Below the pieces are notes generated by a model. That model was not told the origin of the DNA. It worked only from the letters and a program-made list of their open reading frames with translations, and searched no databases. A stretch of 53,581 bases of DNA. Origin: Nevskia sp. Its GTDB lineage: Bacteria > Pseudomonadota > Gammaproteobacteria > Nevskiales > Nevskiaceae. Position 1 is the stretch's first letter, and the number at the start of each line of letters is the position of its first letter. Shown here one piece after another: positions 22,682 through 53,581 of the stretch. The position numbers were made by a program, and so were the translations under genes. Where the stretch lies: NCBI GenBank assembly GCA_031291075.1, contig JARLJS010000054.1, forward strand, positions 1 through 53,581, written 5' to 3'.

Positions 22682-22684
22682 CAT

Positions 22685-25930: not shown

Positions 25931-26046
25931 GACCTCCCCTCCCGGCTTATCCGAGTAGTGGAGATACTATGGGGGCGGGCACGGCGCGGCGCCTTGACAG
26001 TTGGCGCCAGCGCCGGTCGGCGCAATCAGGCTGGGGAGCCGGCTCC

Positions 26047-28684: not shown

Positions 28685-28703
28685 GAGCTATGACATCGTC
28701 ATT

Positions 28704-28786: not shown

Positions 28787-28800
28787 TTGTTTGATGTGAC

Positions 28801-33122: not shown

Positions 33123-33293
33123 GGTCCCGCCCGAGGTGTGCACGAACCCCATCCCGACTCCCAGTTCGATAGCGCGGCTCGATTGTCGCGTGGCCGTCTG
33201 GCTTTAACTATGGCCAATTGCGGCTGCTCCATCTTGACATATGCCGCCACCGTCTCACCGCTGTTGGGAGACCTGATACGCCCAGCCTGTGAG

Positions 33294-34373
33294 CTAAAGT
33301 ACCAACCCGATACTTCCTCCCGGCAGCTCACGCCGGCGCAGCTCGCCGGTACCGTGCTGAAAAGCCGGCATCACCAGGCGGCTTAGGACTTCGTCCGGTT
33401 TCAGCGCCCGGGTACAGCTGCAAGGCGGCCCGGTTTTCTTGGGGCATTGTCGCGATCCCGGCCTGCACCTGCCGGGTGAGCACAGGGTTCGAGCGAGGGG
33501 GCCGATGGGCCTCCATGAAGTCGGATCCAGGGTCGGGCCCGTGGCATAAATGCCCAGGGCGTGCCGCCCGAGCGCGGCGGCGATGTGAAGGGGGCCGGTA
33601 CCGCTGGCCAGCAAGCCGTCGGCAACGTTTACGAACGCCAGCAATTCCCCCAACGACAGCGTGCCCATGACGTCCGTGGTCAAGTCGCTCCGCAGAAGCT
33701 CCGGGCAATCCCGTTCGACGACCTGGCGCTCCTTCTCCGATCCGGTGAGAAACAGCTTGAAGTCATTGGTGTCGCGGAGCGCCCGGGCAAGCTCCAGATA
33801 GTGCTCGAGCGGCCACTCGCGTCCGGAGCCGCCGGATTTCGTATGCAGGATCAGGTTGAAGCGGCCGGGGTCGAGCTGCGCCCTCAGCCTTTCCGGTGCA
33901 GCGCCGACACGCGTCAGGCCGAACAGCAGGCGGGGGTCGGACGGCAAGGGGTCGATAGGCACTCCCAGCGCCTTTACATGCCGCAGGGCAAAACCCAGCA
34001 TGTGCGCATACCCGGTGTTGCCGTAAGCCACGAAACGATTGTGGAACACCGCAGACCGGCGGCGGAACAGGTTGCCGACCCGGATCGGCACCCGCGCGGC
34101 AAATGCCGCACGGGCCATCATGTCGCAGGAAAAAGGGTTGAGGAAAACGTCCGTCCCGATCCTCTTCAGCAAGCCAGGGTCGGCGATGATGTCCTCGCTG
34201 TAGATGACGCTGTCGAAAAACTCGCAGGCCTGCGCCAGCGCCAGCTGCAGACCGGCGAAATGCAGCTTGACGTCAGGCCAATGGCGCCGGATCGCTCCCG
34301 CCAGCGGCAACATCATGACGACGTCGCCAATGGCATACGGGTTGGCGAGTACCACGGTTCGTGGTGCCTTCAC
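33294..34373 (-). CDS. Glycosyltransferase family 9 (heptosyltransferase-like)
   Basis: This 359-residue GT-B protein of the LPS heptosyltransferase family has an N-terminal motif VVLANPYAIGDVVMMLPLA. The C-terminal donor-binding motif is SGRDREWPLEHY-like (GGSGREWPLEHYLELA), followed later by ASGTGPLHIAAALG. Such enzymes add heptose or a related sugar to LPS core or other glycans. It sits between DUF1302 and DUF1329, genes that are normally adjacent, with gaps of 171 and 207 bp and no overlap. Its composition is less GC-rich than its neighbours and the tail after about 325 is unusual. I infer an insertion of foreign origin. Confidence 0.88.
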   Translation of the reverse strand: MKAPRTVVLANPYAIGDVVMMLPLAGAIRRHWPDVKLHFAGLQLALAQACEFFDSVIYSEDIIADPGLLKRIGTDVFLNPFSCDMMARAAFAARVPIRVGNLFRRRSAVFHNRFVAYGNTGYAHMLGFALRHVKALGVPIDPLPSDPRLLFGLTRVGAAPERLRAQLDPGRFNLILHTKSGGSGREWPLEHYLELARALRDTNDFKLFLTGSEKERQVVERDCPELLRSDLTTDVMGTLSLGELLAFVNVADGLLASGTGPLHIAAALGRHALGIYATGPTLDPTSWRPIGPLARTLCSPGRCRPGSRQCPKKTGPPCSCTRALKPDEVLSRLVMPAFQHGTGELRRRELPGGSIGLVL

Positions 34374-34580
34374 GTGCGTTTGCCTTGTATTGTGCCTGGC
34401 GCGGCCTTCAATCCACGGTCAGCAGCGACAGGCTGCGCTGAGCCCGGTGAATGCAGCGCCTTGCCGGACTGTCCGCCATGCCGCCGGCTGGCCCCTTGGA
34501 GTTGAGGATTCCACGAATAATGATCTACAGCGAATACAGGCAGGTCAAGCTGCCTTGCATGACGACGACCGGGCAGGCGC

Positions 34581-35954
34581 CTACCGCGCCCCCTGACGCC
34601 GCAGATAGTCCTCGGTGAACATGTCCGCCTTGAGCCGCCCTTCCTTGCCCGCTAGCCAGTCCGTCTCCGGCTCGCCGATGGTGAAGATGTCGCCCCAGTA
34701 GCGGCCGCTCGGCAGGTCGTAGCTGACATAGTCCTGGCTGGCGTCGCAGGCGCCGATCTCCCAGATCGGGGTGACGCTGCCTTCCTGCACGCGCTGCAGC
34801 TTGTTCTGCGCGTCGTACATGTCCACCAGGACCACCGCCCAGGTGTCCTCGTCGAGGTAGAACACGCGGTGGGGGGAGGAGTGGCGCTGGCCGGGGCGGA
34901 CCTCGGCCTCGATCTTCCACACGCGGTGCAACTCGTAGCGGCGTGCGTCCGGGTTGAGGTGGTCGGCGCCGAACAGCGTCTTGTCGTTGAAGCGGGTGCC
35001 GTCGCGCAGGGCGAAGCTGTCGTACGGGATGTACAGCTCCTGCTTGCCCACCAGCTTGTAGGTGTAGCGGTCCAGCATGCCGTTGTACATCCAGGCCTGG
35101 TCGACGTAGTAGGTGTTCTCCAGGCCGATCAGCGGCGCGTCGTAGGCGTAGGTGGAGAGGCGGCGCACGCGGCGCTGACCGGGGAAGTACTGCCAGCCCT
35201 CGTTGAGCTTCTGCAGGTAGTAGACGCCGGCCTGCAGCGTGCCGGCCAGCGCCGGCGGCGCGGTGGTTTCCTGGTAGAAATAGAACTCGACGCCGTTGGC
35301 GTCGGCGACAGTCCTGGTGTCGGGCGCCTGGAACGGCACCAGGTACTTGGCGACGTACTCGATCTTGGTGAAGTCCGAGCTGCCCTTGGCCGGCGACAGC
35401 AGGGTGTAGTTGGGTTCGATACGGCCCTGGCCTTCGTAGCGCAGCTTGTGGTTCCACATCGCTTCCACCCCGCTGGCCGGCAGCGGGAAGGGGAAGCCGG
35501 AGCCGGTGGCGGCGGCGAGCTCGAAGCCGTCGCCGGCGATCCTGGCGAGCGAGGCATTTTCCTTGGTGCGCTGGTAGACCAGCTCGGGATAGCCGCAGGA
35601 GCGGTGCGTCGGGTAGACGTCCATGCGGTAGCCCTTGATCGTCTTCAGCAGCTCGAGCTGGCCGGGACTGAGACGCGCCTGGTATTGCGAGGCATTCGCG
35701 GCGGAGACGGAAAACAGCGGCTTCTCCGCGGCATAGGGATCGGGCCGCACTTGCCCGGGCTTCCAGCCGGCTGGCACCTTCGTGTCGCCGCCGGTCCAGG
35801 CCGGAATGGAGCCGTCCTTGTTGCCCGCTTTCTCGGCGCCGATCGGTGTGAGGTCCTGGCCCAGCCGCGCGATCTGCGCGTCACCGGCGGCGCTGGCGGC
35901 GCCGCTGAACAGCGCGGCCGCCGCCGCGGTAAGCCATGCTTTGCGTTTGCTCAT
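34581..35954 (-). CDS. DUF1329 family periplasmic protein
   Basis: This 457-residue protein has a signal peptide (about 1-22, cleaved near GAASA) and the DUF1329 pattern: ARLGQDLTPIGAEKAGNKDG near the mature start, IPAWTGG, MDVYPTHRSCGYP, then a long domain with PGQRRVRR and WMYNGMLDRY and a C-terminal EIGACDASQDYV region. DUF1329 has structural similarity to LolA/LolB-like lipid carriers, so a periplasmic shuttle for hydrophobic cargo between the RND pump and the DUF1302 outer membrane protein is plausible; that is inference. The ATG at 35952-35954 gives the correct signal peptide. Confidence 0.9.
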   Translation of the reverse strand: MSKRKAWLTAAAAALFSGAASAAGDAQIARLGQDLTPIGAEKAGNKDGSIPAWTGGDTKVPAGWKPGQVRPDPYAAEKPLFSVSAANASQYQARLSPGQLELLKTIKGYRMDVYPTHRSCGYPELVYQRTKENASLARIAGDGFELAAATGSGFPFPLPASGVEAMWNHKLRYEGQGRIEPNYTLLSPAKGSSDFTKIEYVAKYLVPFQAPDTRTVADANGVEFYFYQETTAPPALAGTLQAGVYYLQKLNEGWQYFPGQRRVRRLSTYAYDAPLIGLENTYYVDQAWMYNGMLDRYTYKLVGKQELYIPYDSFALRDGTRFNDKTLFGADHLNPDARRYELHRVWKIEAEVRPGQRHSSPHRVFYLDEDTWAVVLVDMYDAQNKLQRVQEGSVTPIWEIGACDASQDYVSYDLPSGRYWGDIFTIGEPETDWLAGKEGRLKADMFTEDYLRRQGAR

Positions 35955-36046
35955 TCCGAAAACTCCGCCCCGGCTGTGTCTTCCGACGCGCACTATCGGC
36001 GATAGCGCAGCGCCCATCTTGACATTTCCCGCCAGGACCGTGCGGC

Positions 36047-36868
36047 TCAGCCGACGCCGTAGGAGGCCATCATGAGCCGCTCGAACAGCCTCTGCGGCAG
36101 CACCTTGCGCAGCCACCCGGCGGCGAAGCGCTGGGTCCAGGCGCCCACCTTGTAGCGCAGGCGGGGAGCGCGCGCGACGATGATCCGCTCCAGCGTCCTT
36201 GCCACGAGTTGCGGATCGGCGCCGCCGGATTCGTCGCGCTCCATCGCCGCCAGCGCGTTGAGGAAGCGCTGGCGGTAGACGCCGCGGGGGGCATCGCGCG
36301 CGGCCCGCCCCGCCGAGGTGAAGCCGGTGTGGAAGTCGCCGGGCTCCAGCAGTGCCACCCGCACGCCGTGCGGGCGCACTTCCATGCGCAAGGCCTCGGT
36401 CATGCCTTCCAGCGCGAACTTGCTGGCGCTGTAGAGGCCCTGGAACGGCAGCGCCACCAGCCCACCGAGCGAGCTGACGTTGACGATCAGGCCGCTGCCG
36501 CGGCGGCGCATCGCCGGCAGCACGGCGCGGCAGACGCGCAGCGCGCCGAAGAAATTGGTCTCGAACTGCTGCCGCGCCTCCTCGATGCTGGTGTCTTCCA
36601 CCGCCCCGGCGACGCCGTCGCCGGCATTGTTCAGCACCACGTCCAGCACGCCCTCGCGGGTCAGCACGAGCTGCACGCCGCGCTGCACCGACTCCTCCTC
36701 GGTCACGTCCATCTCGATCATGCGGAAGCCACCGGGCGCGGCGACGTCCTCCTGCGCCTTGCGGCTGGTGCCGTAGACGCAGTAGCCGCGACTGTGCAGG
36801 TATTCGGCGCAGGCCCGGCCGATGCCGGAGGAGGCGCCGGTGATGAGGACTACCGGCTTGCTTTGCAC
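36047..36868 (-). CDS. Short-chain dehydrogenase/reductase
   Basis: This NAD(P)-dependent SDR has the cofactor motif TGASSGIG at about residues 10-17, NNAGDG, the catalytic Ser in VNVSSLGG and the YSASK pair. The tail is basic (APRLRYKVGAWTQRFAAGWL), typical of membrane-associated lipid or steroid SDRs. I used the GTG at 36866-36868, which yields VQSKPVVLITGASSG, the normal SDR start, and 273 residues. An ATG at 36985 that overlaps the AraC stop (ATGA) is an alternative but adds 39 residues with no SDR character. It is probably co-transcribed with the AraC gene and may act on the cargo of the DUF1302/1329/RND system. Confidence 0.87.
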   Translation of the reverse strand: MQSKPVVLITGASSGIGRACAEYLHSRGYCVYGTSRKAQEDVAAPGGFRMIEMDVTEEESVQRGVQLVLTREGVLDVVLNNAGDGVAGAVEDTSIEEARQQFETNFFGALRVCRAVLPAMRRRGSGLIVNVSSLGGLVALPFQGLYSASKFALEGMTEALRMEVRPHGVRVALLEPGDFHTGFTSAGRAARDAPRGVYRQRFLNALAAMERDESGGADPQLVARTLERIIVARAPRLRYKVGAWTQRFAAGWLRKVLPQRLFERLMMASYGVG

Positions 36869-36981
36869 CGACGGCGGATTCCGGTGGCGGATACCGCGGA
36901 TACGCCGCCGCGGCGGGTGCGAGTCGGGCCCGTTCTCCCAGGAGGAGCCGTTGGCCTGGATGAACTCGGCATGGCTGCGGA

Positions 36982-38016
36982 TCATGCGCCGGCCCCGCGG
37001 CGGAATTCGATCGGGCTGACCCCGGACCAGCGGCGGAAGGCGCGGCTGAAGGCGCTCAGCTCGGAATAGCCGAGCAGGTAGCCGATCTCGGTGAGCGACA
37101 GGTGATCCTGCCGCAGGTAACGGCGCGACAGCTCGAAACGCATGCGCTCCACCAGTTCGTTGAAGGTCACGCCGCACTCGCCCAGACGGCGTTGGAGAGT
37201 GCGCTCGCTCAGGTCCATCGCCGCCGCCACCGCCTCGATCGACACGCTGCCGGCGCGCAGGCCGCGCAGGATGTGCTGGCGCACTCCGGCCAGCACGCTG
37301 GCCGGCGGCTGCGGCAGCCGCGTCTCGGCCAGGGTCTGCAGCTGCGCCAGCCGGCGCAGGTCGGCGCCGCCCACGCGCATCGCCAGCACCTCGCGCGGCG
37401 CCACCAGGGCGTTGCAGGCCTGGGAGAAGTACACCGGCGCGCCGAAGATGCGGCGGTGCTCGCCGCTGTCGCGCGGCTCGGGGTGCTCGAAGTACACCGC
37501 CGCGGGGGTCCAGCCGCGCTGGCCGGTGATGGTGCGGGCGAACGTCATCATCTTGACCAGGGCCAGCTCGGCGTCCTGACGGTAGTCCAGGATCTCGGCG
37601 TCGCGGATGGAGTAGGCGATCATCGCGTTGCGACCCTCGATGCGCAGCTCCAGGTCGGCGCCCTCCTGGTGGACGAAGAAGTAGCGTGACACGTTGGCGA
37701 TGGCGGCAGCCACATCCGGCGCGTGCAGCGCCGCGTCGGCCAGTGGTCCGAAGCTGGCCGGACCCTGGCACTGGCCCAGGTGCATGCCGATGGCGTCGTC
37801 GCCGGAAGCGCGCGCCGCTTCCTCCAGCAGTTCCACGAACTGCCGCACCGGCAGGCGTGCCTCCGGGCGCGACAGCATGCGAGGGTCCACCCCGACACGC
37901 GCGCACACCTGCGCCAGCCCGGCGCCGCGGCGATCGAGCAGGGCGGCGAGCCCCTCCAGCGAGGCGCAGCGCATGGTCGCCTCGGACACCCGGCGGTTGT
38001 TTGCGTCCTGTTGCAT
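36982..38016 (-). CDS. AraC family transcriptional regulator (arabinose-binding-like N terminus)
   Basis: This 344-residue regulator has an N-terminal ligand domain of the OruR/ArgR-like AraC group (DDAIGMHLGQ, SFGPLADAALHAPDVAAAI, FGAPVYFSQACNAL). A C-terminal double helix-turn-helix (about 240-340) contains SIEAVAAAMDLSERTLQRRL and LTEIGYLLGYSELSAFSRAF with the closing RRWSGVSPIEFR. It heads the minus-strand SDR and DUF1329/DUF1302/RND block and probably controls it in response to a small hydrophobic ligand, which is inferred. It is divergent from the TetR operon. Confidence 0.92.
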   Translation of the reverse strand: MQQDANNRRVSEATMRCASLEGLAALLDRRGAGLAQVCARVGVDPRMLSRPEARLPVRQFVELLEEAARASGDDAIGMHLGQCQGPASFGPLADAALHAPDVAAAIANVSRYFFVHQEGADLELRIEGRNAMIAYSIRDAEILDYRQDAELALVKMMTFARTITGQRGWTPAAVYFEHPEPRDSGEHRRIFGAPVYFSQACNALVAPREVLAMRVGGADLRRLAQLQTLAETRLPQPPASVLAGVRQHILRGLRAGSVSIEAVAAAMDLSERTLQRRLGECGVTFNELVERMRFELSRRYLRQDHLSLTEIGYLLGYSELSAFSRAFRRWSGVSPIEFRRGAGA

Positions 38017-38315
38017 CGTTCCTCCCGCAGGCCGGACAAGGCGGCCAGTCGTTTTTTTGTCGCATTTACTATGCCGACCAGACGGTAAAGTAATTCAGCC
38101 CGTCCCGGCTGTCGATCCCCCAGTATGTTTTGCCCCCAGGCTGTCGCCGGCGGTCAAGCGCGGCCGCGCCGGCACGGCTAGATTGATGCCTGCTGCCGCG
38201 GCAGGCGCGGCGTGAACGGTGGAGCGGCGTGAGCGAGGACAGGCACGGTTTTCGCGATAAGCTGGGCGGGCTCGATGCAGACGCCGAGCGCCCGACCCAT
38301 CGCCGCCGCCCCGTC
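38017..38315. promoter_or_regulatory. Divergent intergenic region of the AraC and TetR genes
   Basis: The 299-bp spacer separates two regulator genes facing away from each other, so it must hold both promoters. It includes a less GC-rich stretch near 38048-38100 (TTTTTTTGTCGCATTTACTATG, split by context) that suits the AraC-side promoter. I could not identify a firm operator. A GTG at 38229 would extend the TetR protein by 29 residues. Confidence 0.45.
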
Positions 38316-38924
38316 ATGTCCGAATCCCGCCGTCCCCGAGGCCGTCCCAGTTCACGCGAAGCCATGCTCGATGCCGCGCAGGCGGTGGTGCTGGAGGGCG
38401 GCGCCTCCCGCCTGACGCTGGACGCCGTGGCCCGGCGTGCCGGCGTCAGCAAAGGCGGCCTGATGTACAACTTTCCGACCAAGGACGCCCTGCTCAAGGC
38501 GATGCTGGAGCGGCTGGTGGAGCACAACCGCCAGGCCCATGCCGATCTGTGCGCCAGCCTGCCGGACCGGCCGGGGCGCAGCCTGCGGGCCTACGTGATG
38601 AACTCGGTGCGGGCGCTGGACCTGGACGACCGCGTCAGCGGCGCCCTGCTGGCGGTGCTCAACAGCAACCCGGGCCTGCTGGGTCCGGCGGCGGAGTACT
38701 TCAACGGACGCTACGCCAAGCTCGCGGCCGACGTGCCGTTCGAGCGCGCGGCGCTGGTGTACCTGGCGACCGAGGGCCTGTGGGCGCAGGAGCTGTTCCA
38801 GCTGTCCCCGTTCACGCCACGGCAGCGCGCGCAGATCGTGCGGATGCTGGCGCGGATGGCGGAGGATGGCCTCGGTGCGGTGAAGGAAACCGTGAAACGC
38901 AGGAAGGCGAAAGCCGGGAGGTGA
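38316..38924 (+). CDS. TetR/AcrR family transcriptional regulator
   Basis: This 202-residue repressor has the N-terminal helix-turn-helix RPRGRPSSREAMLDAAQ, TLDAVARRAGVSKGGLMYNF and PTKDALLKAMLE (about 4-60), and a C-terminal ligand domain of the TetR_C_37-like type ending FERAALVYLATEGLW. The ATG at 38316 starts the family-typical MSESRRPRGRP; a GTG 29 codons upstream is possible but not conserved in character. It is the first gene of a tightly spaced plus-strand operon and lies 3 bp before the cytochrome gene, so it is probably autoregulatory. Confidence 0.9.
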   Translation: MSESRRPRGRPSSREAMLDAAQAVVLEGGASRLTLDAVARRAGVSKGGLMYNFPTKDALLKAMLERLVEHNRQAHADLCASLPDRPGRSLRAYVMNSVRALDLDDRVSGALLAVLNSNPGLLGPAAEYFNGRYAKLAADVPFERAALVYLATEGLWAQELFQLSPFTPRQRAQIVRMLARMAEDGLGAVKETVKRRKAKAGR

Positions 38925-38927
38925 GAC

Positions 38928-39311
38928 GTGAGACGTGACCCGCGCTTCCCCGACGTCTGTTTTCCGTGGCGGCGGTCCGCTGTCGTCCTGGCCCTGCTGC
39001 TGGCGGCATGCGGCAACGGGCACCCGCAGGCTGCGGCCGGTCCCGTGCCCGCGCCGCCGCCGGCCAGTCCGGCGGTGCAGAAGATCTACGACGGCAGCTG
39101 CCGCACCTGTCACGGCAACCCGGCCTCCGGTGCGCCGCAGGCCGGCGACGTGCAGGCCTGGGCGGCGCGCGTGGCGCAGGGGCGCGAGGTGGTGCTGGGC
39201 CACGTCATCAACGGCTACAAGAAGATGCCGCCGATGGGCTTGTGCACGCAGTGCTCCGAGGACGACTTTGCCGCCCTCACCGCGTACATGGCCGGCGGAC
39301 CGCTGAAATGA
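38928..39311 (+). CDS. c5-type cytochrome c, probable lipoprotein
   Basis: This 127-residue protein has a hydrophobic leader with lipobox LLAAC (Cys28) and a Pro/Ala linker. One haem-binding site CRTCH lies at 58-62, a possible axial Met in KKMPPMG near 100-103, and a following CTQC pair (106, 109) that forms the disulfide characteristic of cytochrome c5/c555. It would carry electrons in the periplasm. The start GTG is 3 bp after the TetR stop, and its stop overlaps the oxidase ATG by 4 bp. The coupling suggests that it accepts electrons from that FAD enzyme. Confidence 0.92.
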   Translation: MRRDPRFPDVCFPWRRSAVVLALLLAACGNGHPQAAAGPVPAPPPASPAVQKIYDGSCRTCHGNPASGAPQAGDVQAWAARVAQGREVVLGHVINGYKKMPPMGLCTQCSEDDFAALTAYMAGGPLK

Positions 39312-40687
39312 CCGCGAACCTGAGCCGCAGGGAGTTGCTGCGATACCTGGCCGCGCTGGGCCTGCCCGGCGCCGGCGGCGCCGCCCTGGCGGCGCGTCCC
39401 GAGCGGATCATTCCCTGGCGCAACTGGTCGGGCGGCCAGGCCTGCATCCCGGCGGCACGCATCGCGCCGGACGGCGAGCAGGCGGTGGCGGACGCGGTGC
39501 GCGCGGCCACCGGCACGCTGCGCGCCGTAGGTTCCAGCCACTCCTTCAGCCCCCTGGTGCCGACCGAGGGCACGCTGTTGTCGCTCAATAATCTTACCGG
39601 CATGATCGGTGCCGACAGCGCGGCGCTGACGTCCGAGTTCTGGGGCGGTACGCGCATGTCGGACATGGGCGAGCCGCTGCAGAAGGCCGGCCTGGCGCTG
39701 TCCAACATGGCGGACATCGACTACCAGACCCTGGCCGGCGCCATCGCCACCTCCACCCATGGCACCGGGCCCAGGTACGGTTCCTATTCCACCCAGGTGA
39801 CCGGCCTGCGCCTGGTGCTGGCCAACGGCGATATCGTCGATTGCGACCGCCAGCACCGCCCGGAGCTGTTCGAGATGGCGCGGGCCTCGCTCGGCGCACT
39901 CGGCATCGTCACGCGGGTGCGCCTGCAGAACCGCAAGGCGTTCCGGCTGCGCCGCAAGGAATGGGTGCAGAACACCGAGGAGCTGCTGGACAACCTGCCG
40001 CAGCTGATCCGAGACAACGACCACTTCGAGCTCAACCCGCTGCTGCATTGCGACCTGTCGCTGGCCTCGTCGCTCAACGAGACCGACGACACCCACACCA
40101 TTCCCAAGGACATGGGCGGCGACACCGAGAAAGTGCGGCCGCTGGCGCTGGTCGACACCTACCTGCGCGACGCGCCGCGGGCCCAGGCCACGCTGCTCGA
40201 CTTCTTCGCCCGCCACATCGACTTCCCGGAGGTGGTGGACGATTCGTTCCGGGTCTTCGCCAACGTGCGCGACGTGCGCTTCAACGAGATGGAGTACGAG
40301 GTGCCGGCCGAGGCCGGGCCTGCCTGCCTGCGCGAGGTGCTGAAGACCATCCGCGAGCAGAACCTGCACAGCTACATCCCGCTCGAGTTCCGTTACGTCA
40401 AGGGCGACGACATCCCGCTGTCGATGTTCCACAACCGCGACACCTGCGCCATCTCGGTCCACCAGTACTACGAGCTGGACTACCACAACTTCTTCGCCCA
40501 GGTCGAGCCGATCTTCTGGAAGTACGACGGTCGTCCGCACTGGGGCAAGCTGCACACGCTCAACGCCAACCAGCTGTCGCGACTGTATCCGCGCTGGAAG
40601 GATTTCCTGGAAGTGCGCGCCGCCGTCGACCCCGCGGGCAAGTTCCTCAACGGGCACTTGCGCTCCGTGCTTGGCGTCAACTGCTGA
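39308..40687 (+). CDS. FAD-linked oxidoreductase, D-arabinono-1,4-lactone oxidase type
   Basis: This 459-residue VAO-family flavoenzyme has an N-terminal FAD-binding (PP-loop) domain with GSSHSFSPL. His78 is at the position that binds FAD covalently in the aldonolactone oxidase group. The domain continues with YQTLAGAIATSTHGTG, then an ALO-type C-terminal substrate domain ending RAAVDPAGKFLNGHLRSVLG. The N terminus (SRRELLRYLAALGLPGAG) resembles a twin-arginine signal, so it may be exported folded with its cofactor. Adjacent cytochrome c suggests dehydrogenase rather than oxygen-using chemistry. The substrate, perhaps a polyol, sugar lactone or similar alcohol, is not determined. Confidence 0.9.
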   Translation: MTANLSRRELLRYLAALGLPGAGGAALAARPERIIPWRNWSGGQACIPAARIAPDGEQAVADAVRAATGTLRAVGSSHSFSPLVPTEGTLLSLNNLTGMIGADSAALTSEFWGGTRMSDMGEPLQKAGLALSNMADIDYQTLAGAIATSTHGTGPRYGSYSTQVTGLRLVLANGDIVDCDRQHRPELFEMARASLGALGIVTRVRLQNRKAFRLRRKEWVQNTEELLDNLPQLIRDNDHFELNPLLHCDLSLASSLNETDDTHTIPKDMGGDTEKVRPLALVDTYLRDAPRAQATLLDFFARHIDFPEVVDDSFRVFANVRDVRFNEMEYEVPAEAGPACLREVLKTIREQNLHSYIPLEFRYVKGDDIPLSMFHNRDTCAISVHQYYELDYHNFFAQVEPIFWKYDGRPHWGKLHTLNANQLSRLYPRWKDFLEVRAAVDPAGKFLNGHLRSVLGVNC

Positions 40688-40697
40688 CGCGCCGACA

Positions 40698-41969
40698 ATG
40701 AACCGCCGCGGATTCATGCTGGGCGCCGCCGGCCTCGGTGCCGTCGCGGCGGGCGGGGCGCTGGCGCGTCCGGGCGCGCACGGCCGGCCCTACGACGACT
40801 ACTTCCGCCGGCTCAACGAGGAGCTGAAGAAGAACGGCCCGATGCGGCCCTGTCTGCTGATCGACCTCGACCGGCTCGACCACAACATCGACCAGGTCAC
40901 CGCCTCGGTCCGCGCGCCCAAGCACTACCGCATCGTCGAGAAGTCGCTGCCGGCGCAGGGATTGATCGACTACGTCGCCAGGCGTGCCGGGACGCGGCGG
41001 CTGATGTCATTCCACCAGCCTTTCATCAACGACGACGCGGTCGCGTTTCCGGACGCCGACATCCTGCTCGGCAAACCGCTGCCGGCGCGCTCGGCGGCGC
41101 TGTTCTACCGCGATCTGAAGGGGCCGTTCGACCCGTCGCGCCAGTTGCAGTGGCTGAGCGATACGCCCGAGCACCTGCAGCAGTACCTGGAACTGGCGCA
41201 GGGGCAGAACCTCAGGCTGCGCATCAACATCGAGCTCGACGTCGGCCTGCACCGCGGCGGCGTGCGCGACCCCGCAGCGCTGGAGCCGATCCTGGCCCTG
41301 ATCGCGGCGCACCCGCGGCAGCTCGAGTTCGCCGGCTTCATGGGCTACGACCCGCATGTCGTCGCCGTCCCCAAGGCAATCGCCTCGCGCGAGGAAATGT
41401 TCCGGCGCGTGATGGCGGCATACCAGGCCTGCGTCGACCACACCCGCAGCCGCTATCCTCAATTGTGGCGCGAGGACCTCACCCTCAATACCGCCGGCAG
41501 TCCCACCTACAGGCTGCACGAGGCGGAAAGCCTCAGCAACGACATCTCGGTGGGCACCGCGCTGCTCAAGCCGACCCACTACGACCTGGACACGCTCGCG
41601 GCGCACGTCCCGGCCGCCTATATCGCCACGCCCGTGCTCAAGGCCAACGGCCCGCTGGTGCTGCCCGGGCTGGAGCAGGGCTCGCGCATCCTAAGCTGGT
41701 GGGACCCGAACCTGCGCGAGACGTATTTCATCTACGGCGGCTACTGGATGGCGGATTACGAATCGCCGAAGGGCTTGCGCTTCAACGCGGCCTACGGCCA
41801 TAGCAGCAACCAGGAGATCGTCAACGCCTCGCCCGGCGTCGGCCTGCAAGTGGACGACCAGGTATTCTTGCGGCCCTGGCAGAGCGAAGCGGTGCTGCTG
41901 GAATTCGGCGACCTGGTGGCGGTGCGGGACGGCAGGATCGTCGATTATTGGGCACCGCTGAAAGCCTGA
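40698..41969 (+). CDS. Alanine racemase N-terminal-like (fold-type III) PLP protein, exported
   Basis: This 423-residue protein of the D-threonine aldolase/D-serine dehydratase-like group has a TIM-barrel PLP domain with LLIDLDRLDHNI and the likely Schiff-base lysine Lys82 in HYRIVEKSLPAQG. A C-terminal beta domain includes GYWMADYESPKGLRF and ends DLVAVRDGRIVDYWAPLKA. The N terminus (MNRRGFMLGAAGLGAVAAG) is Tat-like, unusual for this family, so it may act in the periplasm beside the FAD enzyme and cytochrome. It begins 10 bp after the oxidase stop. A diverged duplicate of its last 307 bp lies at 43611-43917. Confidence 0.87.
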   Translation: MNRRGFMLGAAGLGAVAAGGALARPGAHGRPYDDYFRRLNEELKKNGPMRPCLLIDLDRLDHNIDQVTASVRAPKHYRIVEKSLPAQGLIDYVARRAGTRRLMSFHQPFINDDAVAFPDADILLGKPLPARSAALFYRDLKGPFDPSRQLQWLSDTPEHLQQYLELAQGQNLRLRINIELDVGLHRGGVRDPAALEPILALIAAHPRQLEFAGFMGYDPHVVAVPKAIASREEMFRRVMAAYQACVDHTRSRYPQLWREDLTLNTAGSPTYRLHEAESLSNDISVGTALLKPTHYDLDTLAAHVPAAYIATPVLKANGPLVLPGLEQGSRILSWWDPNLRETYFIYGGYWMADYESPKGLRFNAAYGHSSNQEIVNASPGVGLQVDDQVFLRPWQSEAVLLEFGDLVAVRDGRIVDYWAPLKA

Positions 41970-42027
41970 GCCTTCCGCAACTATCGTTAGAAATTCGGTC
42001 TGACGGATTCCAAGGCACAAGTTACTT

Positions 42028-42123
42028 CGTAGCCAGCGTAGGTCCGAACCGCCGAAGGCGTTTCGGACGCATGTCACTCATCCCCAGCGACCGAAGCCGA
42101 AGCATCGCCGCACCAACGGATCA
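42028..42123. repeat. 96-bp perfect direct repeat, copy 1, containing a REP hairpin
   Basis: Bases 42028-42123 are identical to 43351-43446. The unit starts CGTAGCCAGCGTAGG and ends CACCAACGGATCA. It includes the 27-nt palindrome at 42042-42068 (arms GTCCGAACCGCC and GGCGTTTCGGAC, loop GAA). In copy 2 part of the unit is the tail of a truncated RAYT frame. Confidence 0.95.
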
Positions 42124-42148
42124 TTGCCCTGTCCGGTGGAGCGCTTGG

Positions 42149-42379
42149 TTAGCTCCCACGCTCACGTTCGCGGCCTTCCCGCACTGCAGCGACTACTTCC
42201 GCGCGGCTCAGACGAAGCGAGACGCCCTTAACGGCTAGTGGAGACGGAGACTCCTTGACAGGCTGGACGGTAAACGCCCGGCCGTCTCGACGAGTGATCC
42301 GAACGGCGCCTTCCTTCTGGGCATTCTCCAGAACGGCGGCAAACTTCTGCCGAGCTTCCGAAAATGTATAGACCTTCAT
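42149..42379 (-). CDS. Phd/YefM family antitoxin, without a toxin partner
   Basis: This 76-residue protein has the Phd/YefM N-terminal pattern MKVYTFSEARQKFAAVLENA followed by ITRRDGRAFTVQP, the DNA-binding and dimerisation half of such antitoxins. The C-terminal tail is short and charged (AAVREGRERERGS), and would bind a toxin. GGAGG lies 7 bases upstream of the ATG at 42377-42379. No toxin gene follows: downstream is repeat DNA. The stop codon TAA is part of an AGCTAACCAAGCG sequence resembling the start of an attC site, so it may be a second gene cassette, read in the same direction as the adjacent one. Confidence 0.82.
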   Translation of the reverse strand: MKVYTFSEARQKFAAVLENAQKEGAVRITRRDGRAFTVQPVKESPSPLAVKGVSLRLSRAEVVAAVREGRERERGS

Positions 42380-42416
42380 AGCTACGCCTCCAGGACCTCG
42401 ATGCCAAGGGACTTGG

Positions 42417-42495
42417 TGAGCTGGCCTCAAGTCCCAAGTGTATCGCGGGGAGCGAACGTTTGAAATGCGTCCGAAACGCCTTCGGCGGTTCGGAC
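42417..42495. repeat. Module D with an inserted REP hairpin (filled site)
   Basis: Bases 42417-42472 (starting TGAGCTGGCCTCAAG, ending GAAATGCGTCC) recur with a few changes at 43546-43601. Here a 27-nt REP palindrome occupies 42469-42495 and the sequence then resumes CTACACGGGC. At 43601 the same CTACACGGGC follows directly. The palindrome is the reverse complement of those at 42042-42068 and 43365-43391. Confidence 0.85.
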
Positions 42496-42536
42496 CTACA
42501 CGGGCTCGCCTACGGGCCGTCACGTTAAACCGACGG

Positions 42537-43205
42537 TTAGCAATCATTTCCGCCGGCTCCGAATTGGCCAATTAGCTCGTAGATTCGGCGGGCTCTGAAG
42601 GTAGACCAACGCTCCTCAATATGGAAGCACTTCCCCTCAACCATGGAGGGCGTCCAAATATTGCTGAGATCTGCTTGAATGATGGCGCCTTCCGTCAGAC
42701 GTACGGATGCCTGCCCCACTGCAGACTTTGAATAGGCTTCTTTTACTATTGAAAGCACCCTGCCCTGATGAAAGCTTGGCAGGAGAGCATTACGTACCAA
42801 GATAGCTACGACGAATATCGGCACAGCAACAACCACGCTCCAAGGAAAGTGCTTTGGGATTCCTGGAAAGGCAGGATTTCGATAGATGCCAATCCACCAA
42901 TATGCAAGCCCGGTACCCGCTCCGAGGATAACAAACATAACATTGTTTGAATTAATCAAACGATCGAGGTTGGGGGCGTAACTTAGCGCAGTATCAACCG
43001 CGACGAAGCATGCGCCACAGAACGCTCCAGCCAAAAGTGAATGCCACCACTGAAGCCAACCGGCGCGCCTGAGGACAAGCAGAAGAGGGAGCGCGATGAC
43101 GACCGTAATAGCTAACATGAATGGCAAGGCAAAAAGTGCAAACAGCCCAAACATGAGGCTCGAAAGGAGTGGAGCTATAAAGAGGGCAAGCAATGCGCGC
43201 TTCAT
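42537..43205 (-). CDS. Low-GC membrane protein in a probable integron gene cassette
   Basis: This 222-residue protein of unknown function has four hydrophobic segments, about 3-24, 26-46, 55-78 and 87-105, and a fifth near 115-140, then a soluble C-terminal part with STFRARRIYELIGQFG. It has no recognised domain. The gene is close to 50% G+C by eye, far below its neighbours. The ATG at 43203-43205 begins MKRALLALF; longer starts read through the recombination site. A 12-bp inverted repeat GTTAGCAATCAT/ATGATTGCTAAC flanks the gene exactly (42535-42546 and 43206-43217), the stop TAA lying inside it, which is the boundary pattern of a mobile gene cassette. Confidence 0.72.
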   Translation of the reverse strand: MKRALLALFIAPLLSSLMFGLFALFALPFMLAITVVIALPLLLVLRRAGWLQWWHSLLAGAFCGACFVAVDTALSYAPNLDRLINSNNVMFVILGAGTGLAYWWIGIYRNPAFPGIPKHFPWSVVVAVPIFVVAILVRNALLPSFHQGRVLSIVKEAYSKSAVGQASVRLTEGAIIQADLSNIWTPSMVEGKCFHIEERWSTFRARRIYELIGQFGAGGNDC

Positions 43206-43210
43206 ATGAT

Positions 43211-43304
43211 TGCTAACGCTAGAGGTAAGCGGCGCCGAAGCGCGTTGCACCGAGGACGCCAATAGCTACAAGATGACGGCGTCCACTTGACCAAACAGTT
43301 AGGC
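43211..43304 (-). other. attC-like recombination site
   Basis: Read on the minus strand, the order is GCCTAAC (43304-43298), GGTCAAG, the stem GGACGCC/GGCGTCC, CTTACC and GTTAGCA (43217-43211). CTAAC pairs with GTTAG, and GGTCAAG pairs with CTTACC leaving one extra C, matching the R''-L''-L'-R' layout with the single extrahelical base of attC sites. A 24-nt insertion on one side makes it non-canonical. No integrase gene is in the window. Confidence 0.5.
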
Positions 43305-43350
43305 CCGTCGTTACGGGAAGAGACCTCACGTCGGCACCTCTGAAAGCGAA

Positions 43351-43446
43351 CGTAGCCAGCGTAGGTCCGAACCGCCGAAGGCGTTTCGGACGCATGTCAC
43401 TCATCCCCAGCGACCGAAGCCGAAGCATCGCCGCACCAACGGATCA
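43351..43446. repeat. 96-bp perfect direct repeat, copy 2, containing a REP hairpin
   Basis: This is identical to 42028-42123, 1323 bp away. The REP palindrome is at 43365-43391. The part from about 43397 on is the end of the truncated RAYT frame on the minus strand. Recombination between the two copies would delete the antitoxin and membrane-protein genes. Confidence 0.95.
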
Positions 43447-43531
43447 ACAGGTCATTGCCATACCGCTGCAGCAGATTGACGGTGAAGAACCACGTGCCGC
43501 CCGGCACGTAAGCTCGCCGATGGTTGGGCAT
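43397..43531 (-). pseudogene. REP-associated tyrosine transposase (RAYT), N-terminal fragment
   Basis: The 44-codon frame starts ATG at 43529-43531 with GCGGAG upstream and reads MPNHRRAYVPGGTWFFTVNL, then LQRYGNDLL. This is the hallmark N terminus of RAYT (Y1_Tnp, TnpA_REP) proteins, the part before the HUH motif. The homology stops after about 29 residues and the frame ends at TGA. The HUH and catalytic Tyr are missing, so it is inactive. The flanking REP hairpins are what such transposases mobilise. Confidence 0.8.
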
Positions 43532-43610
43532 CTCCGCTGACCCTCTGAGCTGGCCTCAAGTTCCAAGCGTATCGCAGGGAGCGAATGTTTGAAATGCGTC
43601 CTACACGGGC

Positions 43611-43917
43611 GCCCGGCTTCGAGCAGGGCTCGCGCATCCTGAGCTGGTGGGACCCGAATCTGCGCGAGACGTATTTCATCTACGGCGGTTACTGGATGGC
43701 GGATTACGAATCGCCGAAGGGCTTGCGTTTCAACGCGACCTACGGCCACAGCAGCAACCAGGAGATCGTCAATGCCTCGCCCGGCGTCGGCCTGCGGGTG
43801 GACGACCAGGTGTTCCTGCGGCCCTGGCAGAGCGAAGCGGTGCTGCTGGAGTTCGGCGACCTCGTCGCGGTGCGGGACGGCAGGATTGTGGACTCCTGGG
43901 CGCCGCTGAAGGCCTGA
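43611..43917 (+). pseudogene. Diverged 3' fragment of the PLP protein gene
   Basis: These 307 bp align without gaps to 41663-41969, the last 102 codons of the intact PLP gene, ending at the same stop. I count about two dozen differences, mostly at third codon positions (for example QV to RV, DYWAP to DSWAP in protein). The frame continues upstream for nine codons into module D. It has no start or PLP domain of its own and is not functional as an enzyme. Confidence 0.92.
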
Positions 43918-44068
43918 GCGTCTGTCGGGCCCGATGCCTTCGTTGACACCCGAACGCGACGGGTGTTATGTCTGGCAGAAGAGCCGGACGGCGGGCGATC
44001 CCCGTCCCGGCCGCTGAAAACCAATAAATACACGGCCGGTGTTCCGGCCCGGGAATCGGGGACTGACG

Positions 44069-45679
44069 ATGGGTCGTACTGCGATGTGGCGGGTGCTCCG
44101 CAAGCATTTCCTGCGCCGGGCCCTGGGTTGTGCGGGGTTCACGGCTATCGTCGTCGGCGTCGCCGTCCCCGCCGCTGCCCAGCCGCCCATTGCGCCGGTC
44201 AGCCCGGCCCAGCCCGGTTCCTGCCTGGGGCCCTGGCTGGGCGATTCACAGCTCGACGAGATCCTCACCGGCTTCACGCCGCCGTGGAAGCTGGTCGCGC
44301 AGCGGCTGGGGCAGGCCGTGGCGATCAAGGACAGTCACGATCCCGTGACGATCGCCCAATATATGGCCGGCTTGAACCTGAAAAGCCGGGGCGATTTCGA
44401 GCGCGCGCTCTACGCCTACAGCGGCCTGAACGCGCAGGACATCGGCGGTTTCGTCGCCGCCAATGCCGCGCTGGTGCGCAGTTTCTCCCTGGCGGTGCAG
44501 GCCCACCAGGACTGGTACGAATCGCTGACGGCACGGCTGCTGGTCGGTATCGGCAGCAACATCACGGTGCTCGGGCCGGTGCCGGAAGTGCAGTTTTCGC
44601 AGGACCAGCTTGCGGCGATGCGCACGGCGTTCGCGGCCGACGACGGACTGATCACCAACGGCGGGCTGCTGCTGGCCTATCCAGACCGCGAGGAGCGCAA
44701 CGAGACGGTCACGCGCCAGTATCGCGATCTGTCGGATACCATGCGCGCGATCACCGGCGCCGACAACGCCCTGTGGAGCACCTACGCGGTGTGGGCCTCC
44801 GACGAGATCGGCCGCAATCTGTTTGGCAACATCGACATCGTGCTGGCCGAGGCGGCGGGCGGCAACCCGCGCTACTGGCTCAGCGTGGGCAACTCCCAGC
44901 TCGTCTCCGACATCGGCCCGGCCTTCCGCTCCTTCGTGCAGACCTTCGGCCAGGGCCGGAACCGCGGCACCTCCTTCGCACAGTTCTGGGCCGCGTTCCA
45001 GCAGAGCCATCGCGGCCGCAACATCTCCTACGTCGACGGCAGCGGCGATCCCAGCCTGTACATGGAGAATGCCTTCAAGGCCTACTACGAGGTGATGCAG
45101 TTGAACGACGCCGAGCCCGGCATCGCCGATCCGGTCCAGCGCGCCGCCAGCAGCACGCGGCGCGCCCAGCTCACGCTGCTGGCCAACACGCTGGTGGGAC
45201 TGCAGGAGCAGAGCATCGTGCAGCCGGTGCTCGACAACGGCCTGTGCGTGCTCAGCGTGGTCAATCCCGCCGGCGCCGGCGGCGTGGGCGTCGACTACGA
45301 CCTGCCGCAGGCCGACGGCAGCGGCGATCTCAAGCTGCACACCGACCAGACCCTGCCCAACACCCCGTTCCGGGTCGAGCTGAGCCTGCCGTTCACCACC
45401 GTCGGCGGGCAGACCGTGCCGATGAACCAGGTGATGCAGGAACTGCTCGACGGGCTCAGGAACAACTACTTCCACATCGACCGCTACAACCCGGCGAACA
45501 ACGCCGCCCTGGACTGGCAGAACTACAGCCAGCGCATGGGCTTCATCTTCAGCATGTTCGCCGACTACCAGCGCTACGGCGCGCCCATCTTCCTCGATCC
45601 GCGCCAGGTGTTCGGCACCCGTTCCACGCCGCTGGACAACACGCCGGAGATCGCGGTGCTGACCATCCTCAGCCTGTAG
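44069..45679 (+). CDS. Secreted protein of unknown function
   Basis: I do not recognise the family. The 536-residue product has a long basic leader and signal peptide (LRRALGCAGFTAIVVGVAVPAAAQP, cleaved near residue 35) and no further membrane segment. It has few cysteines (SCLG near the mature start, LCVLS later). The middle is helical and Gln/Asn-rich; the C-terminal third contains TDQTLPNTPFRVELSLPF and NNYFHIDRYNPANNAALDW. The ATG at 44069 was chosen over upstream frame. It lies just downstream of the mosaic island and ends against a palindromic repeat. Convergent with the serine hydrolase gene. Confidence 0.75.
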   Translation: MGRTAMWRVLRKHFLRRALGCAGFTAIVVGVAVPAAAQPPIAPVSPAQPGSCLGPWLGDSQLDEILTGFTPPWKLVAQRLGQAVAIKDSHDPVTIAQYMAGLNLKSRGDFERALYAYSGLNAQDIGGFVAANAALVRSFSLAVQAHQDWYESLTARLLVGIGSNITVLGPVPEVQFSQDQLAAMRTAFAADDGLITNGGLLLAYPDREERNETVTRQYRDLSDTMRAITGADNALWSTYAVWASDEIGRNLFGNIDIVLAEAAGGNPRYWLSVGNSQLVSDIGPAFRSFVQTFGQGRNRGTSFAQFWAAFQQSHRGRNISYVDGSGDPSLYMENAFKAYYEVMQLNDAEPGIADPVQRAASSTRRAQLTLLANTLVGLQEQSIVQPVLDNGLCVLSVVNPAGAGGVGVDYDLPQADGSGDLKLHTDQTLPNTPFRVELSLPFTTVGGQTVPMNQVMQELLDGLRNNYFHIDRYNPANNAALDWQNYSQRMGFIFSMFADYQRYGAPIFLDPRQVFGTRSTPLDNTPEIAVLTILSL

Positions 45680-45950
45680 AGGATCTTTAGTTCAGGTGCA
45701 TGCATATTGTTCCCCTCTCCCGTTTACGGGGTCCGTTGCGCCGGCTTGCGAGCGAAGCTCGCTGGCGCAACGGACGGGCGGTGCAGGATGCACCGCCCAG
45801 CTTTCAAGCGGAGCAGGAAGCGCAGCGCTGAAAGAGGGGTAGGGGAGAGGGGCTTTTGATTGAAAAAATGCCCCTCTCCCGGCCCTGCGGGCCACCCTCT
45901 CCCGCAAGCGGGAGAGGGGAAAGAATGTGTGCACATAAGTGAAATGCTCT
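45680..45950. repeat. Dispersed palindromic element, copy B, split by a nested element
   Basis: The ends match copies at 13243-13396 and 51570-51740 (start GGATCTTTAG, CCCCTCTCCCG; end GGGAGAGGGGAAAGAATGTG, GCACATAAG). The left hairpin is interrupted after CCCGTTTAC by about 105 bases at 45731-45834 that are absent from the other copies. The site lies between convergent genes. Confidence 0.88.
45731..45834. repeat. Nested triple-hairpin insertion
   Basis: Three consecutive inverted repeats fill this stretch: GTCCGTTGCGCC (45731-45742) with GGCGCAACGGAC (45764-45775), itself enclosing GCGAGC/GCTCGC; GGGCGGTG (45776-45783) with CACCGCCC (45791-45798); and CTTTCAAGCG (45801-45810) with CGCTGAAAG (45826-45834). 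It interrupts the larger palindromic element and probably inserted into it. Confidence 0.75.
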
Positions 45951-45960
45951 GGCGACGGCC

Positions 45961-47166
45961 TCACTCCTGCGCCTGCCCGGTCATGAATGCCTTGCGGATG
46001 CTCATCCCGCACACGACCGAACGATAGTAGGGCGCGTCCTGGGTGGTCTTCGCCTTGGTGCGGTCGAAGCGGGCCACGATGCCGTACCAGGTCTTGCTCG
46101 AATCGATCCAGGGATAGAAGCCGAACCGGCCGGGGCTGCTGTAGGAACCGTCGCCGGTGGCGGGGTCGTCCTCGATCCAGTGGGTGATGGAGTAGTGCCA
46201 GCTCACGTCGCTGGGCAGTGGCGTGAACACGGCCAGGGGCTGGCCGTCGCCGTCGACGCAGTTGGGATCCGAGGGGTTGGTGCACACCGCGTAGGGGTCC
46301 GCGCCGGTGGGGCGCAGGAAGGCGCTCATCACCAGCGGATCGGTCTTGCGCAGCATGGCCCGCAGGAAGGTGGCGTAGTCACCCGGCGTGGTGCGGATGC
46401 CGCCGGCGAGGATCGGCGCGATGAACGACAGGCGCATGTCGACGCCCTTGGCGGCGAACGCCAGCTCGATCATGGAGGCGAGCATGCCGTCGTCGTAGTG
46501 CGCGCCGTGCATCACCCCGGCGATCGACGGGTCGGCGCCGCCCTCGAACACCTCCAGGTGGCCGGAGTTGTAGTAGAAGCGGCCGATGTCGGCCGGCGTG
46601 CGCGTGTTGTTGGGTACGGCCGAACTGCCGCGCTGGTCCGGTGCTTCCAGGCAGGCCTCCACCGTCGGCGTCAGTTCGGCGGGGCAATGGTCGCCCATGT
46701 TGTCGTAGCCGCTGGTGAAGTTGAGGAACGGCACATAAGAGGCCGGCATGGTCCATCCGCCGCTGCCCGGCAGCGCCCGCGTCTCGGCGACGTAGGCGCC
46801 GTATACCCACTTGCTGGAGGAGGCGATCAGCATGGACTTGTCCCGCGTGTAGCGGGGGATCAGCTCTCCGGACGGCTGCACGCTGCCGGCGGCTGCCAGG
46901 CCGCTCGCCGGATCGGCCACGATGCCATCCTTGTCGCCGATCTCCCAATAGAAGCCGTCGTTCTCGCCATACCGGTTCTGGCTGATCGTGCCGCAGGAGG
47001 AAGCGGGGTCTGGATTGGTGGCGGTGGCCCGCGCGGCCTCGATCTGCTGGCGCAGGGTGGGAGCGGTGCCGGCGCGGCCGGCGCCGCCGATACAGCAGCC
47101 GGCCAGCGCGATCAGCGTCAGCGCCGCCGGACGGGCTGCACTCGTTGTCCTCTTCGATTTGTTCAC
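45961..47166 (-). CDS. Beta-lactamase-like serine hydrolase, exported
   Basis: This 401-residue protein of the serine beta-lactamase-like/esterase superfamily has an N-terminal hydrophobic leader with a lipobox-like LALAGC (about 19-24). SxxK is at Ser116-Lys119 (ASSSKW). A YYNSGH motif serves as the YxN element. GGIRTTPGDYATFLRAML is typical of class C-like hydrolases. Many extra cysteines suggest disulfides. The GTG at 47164-47166 is preferred because TGGAGA lies six bases upstream and the leader begins cleanly; an ATG at 47199 is the alternative. It is the last gene of a four-gene envelope operon. Substrate unknown, perhaps an ester or a peptidoglycan peptide. Confidence 0.83.
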   Translation of the reverse strand: MNKSKRTTSAARPAALTLIALAGCCIGGAGRAGTAPTLRQQIEAARATATNPDPASSCGTISQNRYGENDGFYWEIGDKDGIVADPASGLAAAGSVQPSGELIPRYTRDKSMLIASSSKWVYGAYVAETRALPGSGGWTMPASYVPFLNFTSGYDNMGDHCPAELTPTVEACLEAPDQRGSSAVPNNTRTPADIGRFYYNSGHLEVFEGGADPSIAGVMHGAHYDDGMLASMIELAFAAKGVDMRLSFIAPILAGGIRTTPGDYATFLRAMLRKTDPLVMSAFLRPTGADPYAVCTNPSDPNCVDGDGQPLAVFTPLPSDVSWHYSITHWIEDDPATGDGSYSSPGRFGFYPWIDSSKTWYGIVARFDRTKAKTTQDAPYYRSVVCGMSIRKAFMTGQAQE

Positions 47167-47205
47167 GGGAATCTCCACGATGGTTGCGGTAGGTGGCATC
47201 GATGC

Positions 47206-51401: not shown

Positions 51402-51568
51402 CTAGTGTGGTGAGTTAGAAATTCGTTAACTAAATTTCTTCGTCATTCCCGCGCAGGCGGGAATCCAGTTTTCGATTTTGCACGAAGCTCCAAAGCAGAA
51501 CTGGGTCCCCGCCTCCGCGGGGACGACAGTCCCAACTTAATAAACGTATTTCCAACTCACCACACTAG
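51402..51568. mobile_element. MITE, complete 167-bp copy
   Basis: The element runs from CTAGTGTGGTGAGTTAGAAA to the imperfect inverse TTTCCAACTCACCACACTAG, with about 34-bp terminal inverted repeats. The interior holds ATTCCCGCGCAGGCGGGAAT and GTCCCCGCCTCCGCGGGGAC, which are themselves inverted relatives, making the unit a near-complete palindrome. It codes for nothing. CTAG at both ends fits the TA/CTAG target habit of IS630-type elements. The partial copy at 1-137 is nearly identical. Confidence 0.85.
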
Positions 51569-51569
51569 G

Positions 51570-51740
51570 GCATCTTTAGCTTAGATGCATACATGTTGTT
51601 CCCCTCTCCCGCTTGCGGGAGAGGGGTAGGGGAGAGGGGCTTTTGGCCGGACGCAAAGCCCCTCTCCCGGCCCTGCGGGCCACCCTCTCCCGCAAGCGGG
51701 AGAGGGGAAAGAATGTGTGCACGTAAAGAGAAAACGCTCT
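51570..51740. repeat. Dispersed palindromic element, copy C
   Basis: This is the fullest uninterrupted copy: GCATCTTTAGCTTAGATGCA start, the CCCCTCTCCCGC hairpin, GGGGTAGGGGAGAGGGGC, a variable 15-bp middle, CCGGCCCTGCGGGCC, the second hairpin and an AAAGAATGTGTGCACGTAAA end. The two outer arms of about 45 bp are imperfect inverses. It directly follows the MITE (1-bp gap) and lies downstream of the hsdR remnant. Confidence 0.88.
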
Positions 51741-51775
51741 AAAGCATCTGGGATTTCGCAGTCCTGCAATCTCGC

Positions 51776-53441: not shown

Positions 53442-53581
53442 CTAGTATCCTGAGTTAGAAATTCATTGAATTAATTTGACTCTCCGTTGTCTTATGCTCT
53501 CTCACCAGCACGCAGGGGGGCATATGGGACTGGGGCGGCCGATGCCGGAGTTGAAACTGACGGCGACGGAAAGCGATCAAC
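53442..53581 (+). mobile_element. IS630-type insertion sequence, left end (continues past window)
   Basis: The left end begins CTAGTATCCTGAGTTAGAAA at 53442. About 29 of the first 36 bases match the MITE end at 51402. A transposase reading frame starts at 53524 behind a G-rich ribosome binding site. It lies 73 bp upstream of the hsdR start codon and could influence its promoter. Confidence 0.78.
53524..53581 (+). CDS. IS630 family transposase, N-terminal fragment
   Basis: Only 19 codons lie in the window: MGLGRPMPELKLTATESDQ. This matches the usual start of IS630-family transposases, which read GRPxPELxLTxxE before the first helix-turn-helix. GGGGGG at 53513-53519 precedes the ATG. The DDE catalytic domain would lie beyond the window edge, so completeness cannot be judged. 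Confidence 0.72.
   Translation, partial: MGLGRPMPELKLTATESDQ

Follow-up and report, generated by a model that had tools for sequence, protein, structure and literature searches.

The prophage e14 in icd of Escherichia coli K-12 is a described example of a complete gene that is followed by an insert and then by a displaced, truncated copy of its own 3′ end. Homology-facilitated illegitimate recombination is a different process, in which incoming DNA is joined through homology on one side and without homology on the other side. As described in PMC6382021, the entry of DNA with large heterologous stretches by this route depends on RecA. The e14 prophage displaces 163 bp of the icd end and completes the reading frame with sequence of its own (PMC6379469), and the e14–icd region is described as unstable (PMC5431349). 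Elements with a REP-associated tyrosine transposase (RAYT) and repetitive extragenic palindromic (REP) ends carry GTAG, which takes part in recognition by TnpA-REP (PMC8266576, PMC3733652), and the attC sites of integron cassettes have been compared as folded single strands in the RAYT/REP context (PMC8266576). In this study, the window, meaning the whole 53,581-nt stretch of DNA analysed (Nevskia sp., assembly GCA_031291075.1, contig JARLJS010000054.1, positions 1 to 53,581), was investigated with regard to a gene for a DSD1-like pyridoxal phosphate (PLP)-dependent enzyme, the 3′ end of which occurs twice, on either side of an island. We consider the chances somewhat better than even that this island is the scar of a recombination between sister-lineage alleles of one chromosomal locus. 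The genome to which the window belongs, as contig C223, has 302 contigs and 5.65 Mb and is 96.9% complete.

The intact PLP gene lies at 40698–41969 on the forward strand. It starts at the ATG at 40698 and encodes 423 aa, a direct reading that corrects an earlier start, and 40707–41966 matches PF01168 (alanine-racemase N-terminal fold) at 6.9e-15. Orthologues in relatives reach up to 76% identity. When 41600–44100 was compared with the window using blast, 41663–41971 matched 43611–43919 over 309 bp, gap-free and at 92.2% identity (E = 7e-128). The two 3′ ends, both on the forward strand, are named here copy A (41663–41969, inside the intact gene) and copy B (43611–43917, a remnant that abuts a miniature mobile element, E2). 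They lie in direct orientation, 1948 bp apart, and share a TGA stop; the match continues for 2 nt past the stop and then ends, and the DNA behind the two stops is unrelated both by eye and by blast. Within the first 307 bp there are 24 differences, and 17 of the 21 codons that differ are synonymous, leaving four non-synonymous ones (L/F, A/T, Q/R, Y/S). A sequence-only reading of the window had described a gap-free second copy of the last 307 bp with the same stop and about two dozen, mostly synonymous differences, and this description was confirmed on each count. An ATG inside E2 is in frame with copy B and would give a putative open reading frame (ORF) of 110 aa at 43585–43917.

Comparison with orthologues places copies A and B closest to each other. 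They are 92.1% identical over 303 bp, and the closest of 18 orthologues shows 79.9% identity to A and 76.2% to B, with none of the 18 above 79.9%. These orthologues were chosen among 70 relative loci, some of which came from the same record and the flanks of which were of unequal length. A single match to the 101-aa PLP end was present at 70 of 70 loci, and no second copy was found there. The PLP protein has matches in 27 of 61 genomes, its own included. In its own genome it matches only the intact gene and the copy B fragment, so that copy B is not nearer to another paralogue; the one other genome with two matches (G046) holds a 26% paralogue over most of the length as its second. Codon changes were also simulated under a neutral model (4000 runs), on the assumption that a released duplicate takes at least half of the 24 changes. 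With 12 substitutions, the mean was approximately eight amino-acid changes, and four or fewer occurred in 1.0–1.5% of the 4000 simulations. Because so few amino-acid changes would be unlikely if a duplicate had taken half of the changes neutrally, the comparison favours, without amounting to proof, two alleles that both evolved under selection. The codon pattern of 17 to 4 and the simulation together support the earlier proposal that copy B is a homologous allele under selection and not a recent self-duplication. Codon composition was considered for deciding which copy is native and was uninformative, as the GC content at third codon positions (GC3; 0.91 in copy B, 0.87 in copy A, 0.92 in the rest of the gene) rests on too few codons.

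The DNA between the copies (41972–43610, 1639 bp) has a GC content of 0.515–0.608 (400-bp steps from 42001, 42401, 42801 and 43201), against 0.675 for the window. It is a mosaic of two defective RAYT/REP copies, the first of which holds a vapC-like tail and an intact antitoxin gene, and of one integron cassette. A spacer of 59 bp, X1 (41972–42030), leads from the PLP stop to the first element and has no match elsewhere in the own genome. The repeats of this DNA, namely, an exact direct repeat of 96 bp (42028–42123 and 43351–43446), a direct repeat of 62 bp at 90% and an inverted repeat of 46 bp at 93%, are the ends of the RAYT/REP elements. E1 (42031–42506, reverse strand) has both ends intact and a replaced middle, as judged from the repeats, the termini and the alignment with six other copies. 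E2 (43354–43609, reverse strand) is a miniature RAYT element that matches the copy on contig C74 at 93% over 255 bp, and its right-end hairpin and terminal CT are lost (terminus CTACACGGGCG).

Seven copies of this family were seen, namely, E1, E2 and those on contigs C74, C176, C93, C40 and C205. The full-length copy on C176 (L052, 5425–6105) has inverted, GTAG-tagged hairpins flanking a 176-aa gene, the product of which is a REP-associated tyrosine transposase (NF047646 at 1.7e-58; no Pfam match at 0.01); it is one of six such genes in the genome and provides an autonomous partner for E1 and E2. Left ends fit AG-N5-GTAG in all seven copies and right ends fit CTAC-N5-CT in six, with E2 as the exception. 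Both inverted GTAG hairpins are present in five copies (E1, C74, C176, C93 and C40), and E2, with its left-end hairpin kept, and C205 have one each. The C205 copy (L055, 5990–6090) has lost its left-end hairpin in the same way as E2 its right one, with GTAGGACGC in both, and the losses are recurrent palindrome loss. The internal deletion of E2 is identical to that of the C74 copy, which suggests from the alignment that this miniature form has been copied in the past; mobilisation in trans beyond that is not implied. Matches were found in 18 of 61 genomes (the best nine or fewer candidates per genome being scored, so that short REP ends could be missed), and REP ends were matched in the own genome alone, while in each of the other 17 the match lay wholly inside the transposase region, at 65–78%. 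As no REP ends were matched in the other genomes among the 61, the island probably arose in this lineage or in one close to it. The impression of foreign-looking DNA in the sequence-only reading therefore holds only with a qualification, since the family of the RAYT/REP parts has more copies in the own genome. The copies on C74 (L051, 3680–4420) and C93 (L053, 7230–7850) adjoin apparent toxin–antitoxin pairs, by eye.

The right joint between E2 and copy B reads CTACACGGG|CGCCCGGCTTCGAG. The hairpin and the conserved terminal CT of E2 are missing exactly at the contact with the PLP fragment, and for this reason the joint is not a normal RAYT end and is taken as an illegitimate joint. Since this end is abnormal and the DNA at the other side of E2 is not PLP DNA, E2 did not simply insert into the PLP gene.

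The surroundings of the PLP gene were compared among relatives. An oxidase gene of the flavin adenine dinucleotide (FAD) type lies to the left of the PLP gene in nine of 11 relatives compared, and a longer shared block is present in three of the same genus. On the right, the genes at 44069 and 45961 were beside the PLP gene in none of the 11 relatives, 10 of which are informative, as one contig ends 33 nt past the stop; the relatives hold one PLP copy with different downstream DNA. Because the left neighbour is kept and the right neighbours are not, the PLP stop looks, on the sequences compared, like a general border between conserved DNA on the left and variable DNA on the right. With variable DNA at the 3′ side of this gene, a sister lineage that differs in what follows the gene is to be expected.

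An illegitimate joint next to two selected alleles suggests an exchange with a sister lineage. One version of the place would have carried an intact PLP gene with accessory DNA directly behind it (RAYT miniatures, antitoxin fragment and integron cassette), and the other version the PLP gene with the 44069 gene behind it. On the left, DNA of the first version would have joined the second by homology, either within the PLP gene or upstream of it, and on the right a non-homologous joint would have formed at the damaged E2 end. Of the two alleles, one would then survive as a complete PLP gene and the other as its final 307 bp, still ahead of its native downstream DNA. A variant would be the Campbell-type entry, by a single crossover, of a circle with a PLP 3′ end, the joint being already present in the donor. 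The divergence of 8% between copies A and B is inside the range of approximately 15% up to which transformation of B. subtilis, with RecA exchange, works according to PMC6382021. The diverged copies with their mostly synonymous differences, the anatomy of the elements and the abnormal right joint are observed features; the recombination event, its direction and its donor are what we infer from them. Several points weigh against this explanation. Divergence of 3% already strongly blocks transduction, as cited in PMC6382021. The left crossover could not be placed, any microhomology at the right joint amounts to a few G/C at most, short and uncertain, and no sister genome with either allele was found. 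Four or fewer amino-acid changes occurred in 15–21% of simulations with eight substitutions, which matters if copy B took only about eight. Finally, a site-specific model predicts the same topology.

Such a model would make the island the remnant of an integrative element at the PLP 3′ end, in which the end of copy A came from the element, copy B is the displaced original, and the integrase and most of the element were later deleted. The complete gene, the insert and the 5′-truncated, displaced 3′ end reproduce the e14 layout, the duplicated end brackets the insert, the homology stops 2 nt past the stop, as expected if only coding letters were kept, and in GC3 copy B differs less from the remaining gene than copy A does, although over few codons. 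The sequence-only reading had likened the structure to integrative elements with a replacement end, or to recombination with incoming DNA, while noting that no integrase was visible. No integrase was indeed found by Pfam among 15 window reading frames, the set that the scan took in, nor did either of the two genes between the copies match one in Pfam or NCBIfam. No phage record with the PLP gene end was found, nor did a relative turn up in viral contigs, where the scan was pattern-based and limited in reach to close relatives; four plasmid matches to the gene end are annotated as enzymes (two as 'DSD1 family PLP-dependent enzyme', two as 'alanine racemase'). Parts of the island are RAYT, toxin–antitoxin and cassette pieces with no genes of phages or integrative and conjugative elements, and the relative loci are all single-copy. 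This explanation ranks second because the scanned frames yielded no integrase and the searches no viral or phage carrier of the gene end; it is so far unsupported, and we regard it as rather unlikely. The RAYT elements themselves could have moved a REP-bounded unit and, with it, part of an adjacent PLP allele, given that RAYT miniatures flank the cassette, that E2 touches the PLP fragment and that the genome has a complete RAYT gene of this family. Against this, the E2 end at the fragment is not a normal one, being without REP hairpin and CT, and PLP DNA is at none of the five other copy loci, which makes such a transposition improbable. Even fainter is the prospect of a unit of approximately 1.95 kb, with RAYT/REP ends and a coding 3′-end replacement, that would insert at gene ends without its own integrase as a single-strand-transposon counterpart of e14.

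A tandem duplication of the PLP 3′ end in situ, later separated by insertions and diverged, would account for the direct orientation of two copies at 1948 bp from each other. It fits poorly and is disfavoured, with very little probability left to it: the codon differences are largely synonymous (a pattern rare in the simulation at 12 neutral changes, but not at eight), the DNA after the two stops is unrelated, and the 70 relative loci each hold one copy. A chimera of two strains, made during assembly, is likewise unlikely and would be a very improbable origin. The genome looks like a metagenome bin, judged from its 302 contigs, and the exact 96-bp repeat of E1 and E2 could mislead a short-word assembler. 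Among the contigs listed, however, a stretch of 138–141 bp is shared at the starts of eight, and one of 147–308 bp at those of four more; the former lengths suggest an assembly word size near 141, against which the longest exact repeat touching the region (in the window and five own-genome loci) has 96 bp. Both PLP joints also lie outside repeats. A search for a second strain with window 22000–41970 as query scored the best 40 of 1170 candidates and found no second copy at approximately 92% in the own genome, except the PLP end and a short dispersed repeat.

The locus resembles the described systems in part. Its layout is that of e14 in icd; the differences are an insert of 1.6 kb, integrase and phage genes that were not found, a damaged RAYT element at the end of the insert, and a repeat of 307 bp instead of 163 bp. 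Homology-facilitated illegitimate recombination is known at low frequency from laboratory transformation, whereas here we infer it and the left crossover is unseen. With REPtrons and REPINs the elements share inverted, GTAG-tagged end hairpins and a full copy with a RAYT gene; they differ in the low copy number (seven seen), in the antitoxin gene inside one copy, and in the hairpin that E2 and the C205 copy have each lost in the same way. The cassette is like integron cassettes in having an attC homologous to a plasmid cassette site with an ORF right after it, and unlike them in that no integron integrase was found beside it and that the following attC is cut by E1. The parts are thus of known kinds and their arrangement is unusual; the scar is real and well preserved, and its mechanism is a reconstruction. 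If the explanation holds, the locus is a legible record of an exchange of alleles with a sister lineage: the abnormal joint, the passenger DNA and sequence from both alleles can still be made out, and RAYT miniatures, a toxin–antitoxin fragment and an integron cassette would have accumulated in the variable stretch that follows a conserved gene. A gene-end duplication like that of e14 could then also be imitated with no integrase involved, which is relevant to genome scans that call integrated elements from 3′-end repeats.

The cassette ORF (42537–43205, reverse strand) encodes a probable membrane protein of 222 aa of no known family (no Pfam or NCBIfam match) and begins just after an attC recombination site (43211–43304, reverse strand). 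This site is 75% identical over 91 bp (E = 2e-5) to a site of pNECK1, a Pseudomonas aeruginosa plasmid, which sits there between ester cyclase and fosX cassettes; the other seven of eight plasmid records listed are weak (E 0.1–0.4). In the minimum-energy folds of either strand (−15.6 and −15.0 kcal/mol), the end boxes are incompletely paired and no full-length hairpin forms. A second complete attC behind the ORF was not found, only what appears by eye to be the front part of one (42507–42542, reverse strand), which has a CTAAC/GTTAG box, holds the ORF stop and is cut off at E1. The spacer X1 was considered as the missing half of this site and rejected, as it shows by eye no pairing with the front half. 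The cassette ORF had no match in plasmids or, in a pattern-based scan, in viral contigs, and the 369 genomes searched gave, besides the ORF itself, two weak matches, of which one lies in the own genome and one in another. Plasmid and viral-contig searches with the two island proteins led nowhere. The integron integrase model TIGR02249 gave no match above cut-off in the own genome. An apparently broken-off IntI-like piece is present on contig C88 (L191, approximately 205–450; 80 positions, 58.5 bits), and it is a lead only, because the search controls match below the cut-off in all 14 genomes.

Inside E1, an intact Phd/YefM-type antitoxin gene of 76 aa (42149–42379, reverse strand) matches PF02604 at 8.3e-9 and TIGR01552 at 3.5e-6. 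It is preceded by the terminal codons (TKSLGIEVLEA*; 42382–42416, reverse strand) of a toxin gene of the vapC-like kind, the rest of that gene being missing; they were recognised by the same position and a similar ending in L200 and L201. Antitoxin matches occur in four of 85 genomes of the order, that is, the own genome, two at 77% and one at 45%. In both 77% relatives (L200 and L201), the antitoxin gene lies directly behind a toxin-like gene, which has a PIN domain in L201 by scanning and is alike in L200 by eye. The sequence before the antitoxin start was also considered as a damaged attC boundary; this was rejected, as the relatives show the end of a vapC-like gene.

The gene downstream of copy B (44069–45679, forward strand, 536 aa) is an orphan in the relatives searched. 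It has no Pfam or NCBIfam match, its protein is present in one of 61 genomes, the own one, and a pattern scan of genome_contigs gave no relative. No relative thus showed an uninterrupted PLP gene directly ahead of this gene, the comparison that the sequence-only reading had suggested. A repeat of approximately 280 bp (45672–45953) covers the end of this gene and the DNA behind it, with six other own-genome places listed at 89–95%. Further right, the protein of 45964–47199 has relatives in 13 of 18 genomes, the best in one genome (G001) at 57–60% on three contigs other than its PLP contig, and there is thus no common right border. A histidine kinase, searched for right-hand synteny, was matched in 18 of 18 genomes, at 39% or less outside the own genome among the matches listed.

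At the right end of the window, the repeats at 51402–51742 and 53442–53581 are common to many own-genome contigs, in many cases right at the contig start. The assembly seems to be interrupted by these repeats, and one of them closes the window. An HsdR-like type I restriction gene (51776–53368, 530 aa) adjoins these contig-end repeats, has N-terminal and helicase matches only and is possibly truncated. On the other side of the PLP gene, a near-palindromic repeat of 83 bp at 28704–28786 recurs at 19 other own-genome places listed, with 79–92% identity.

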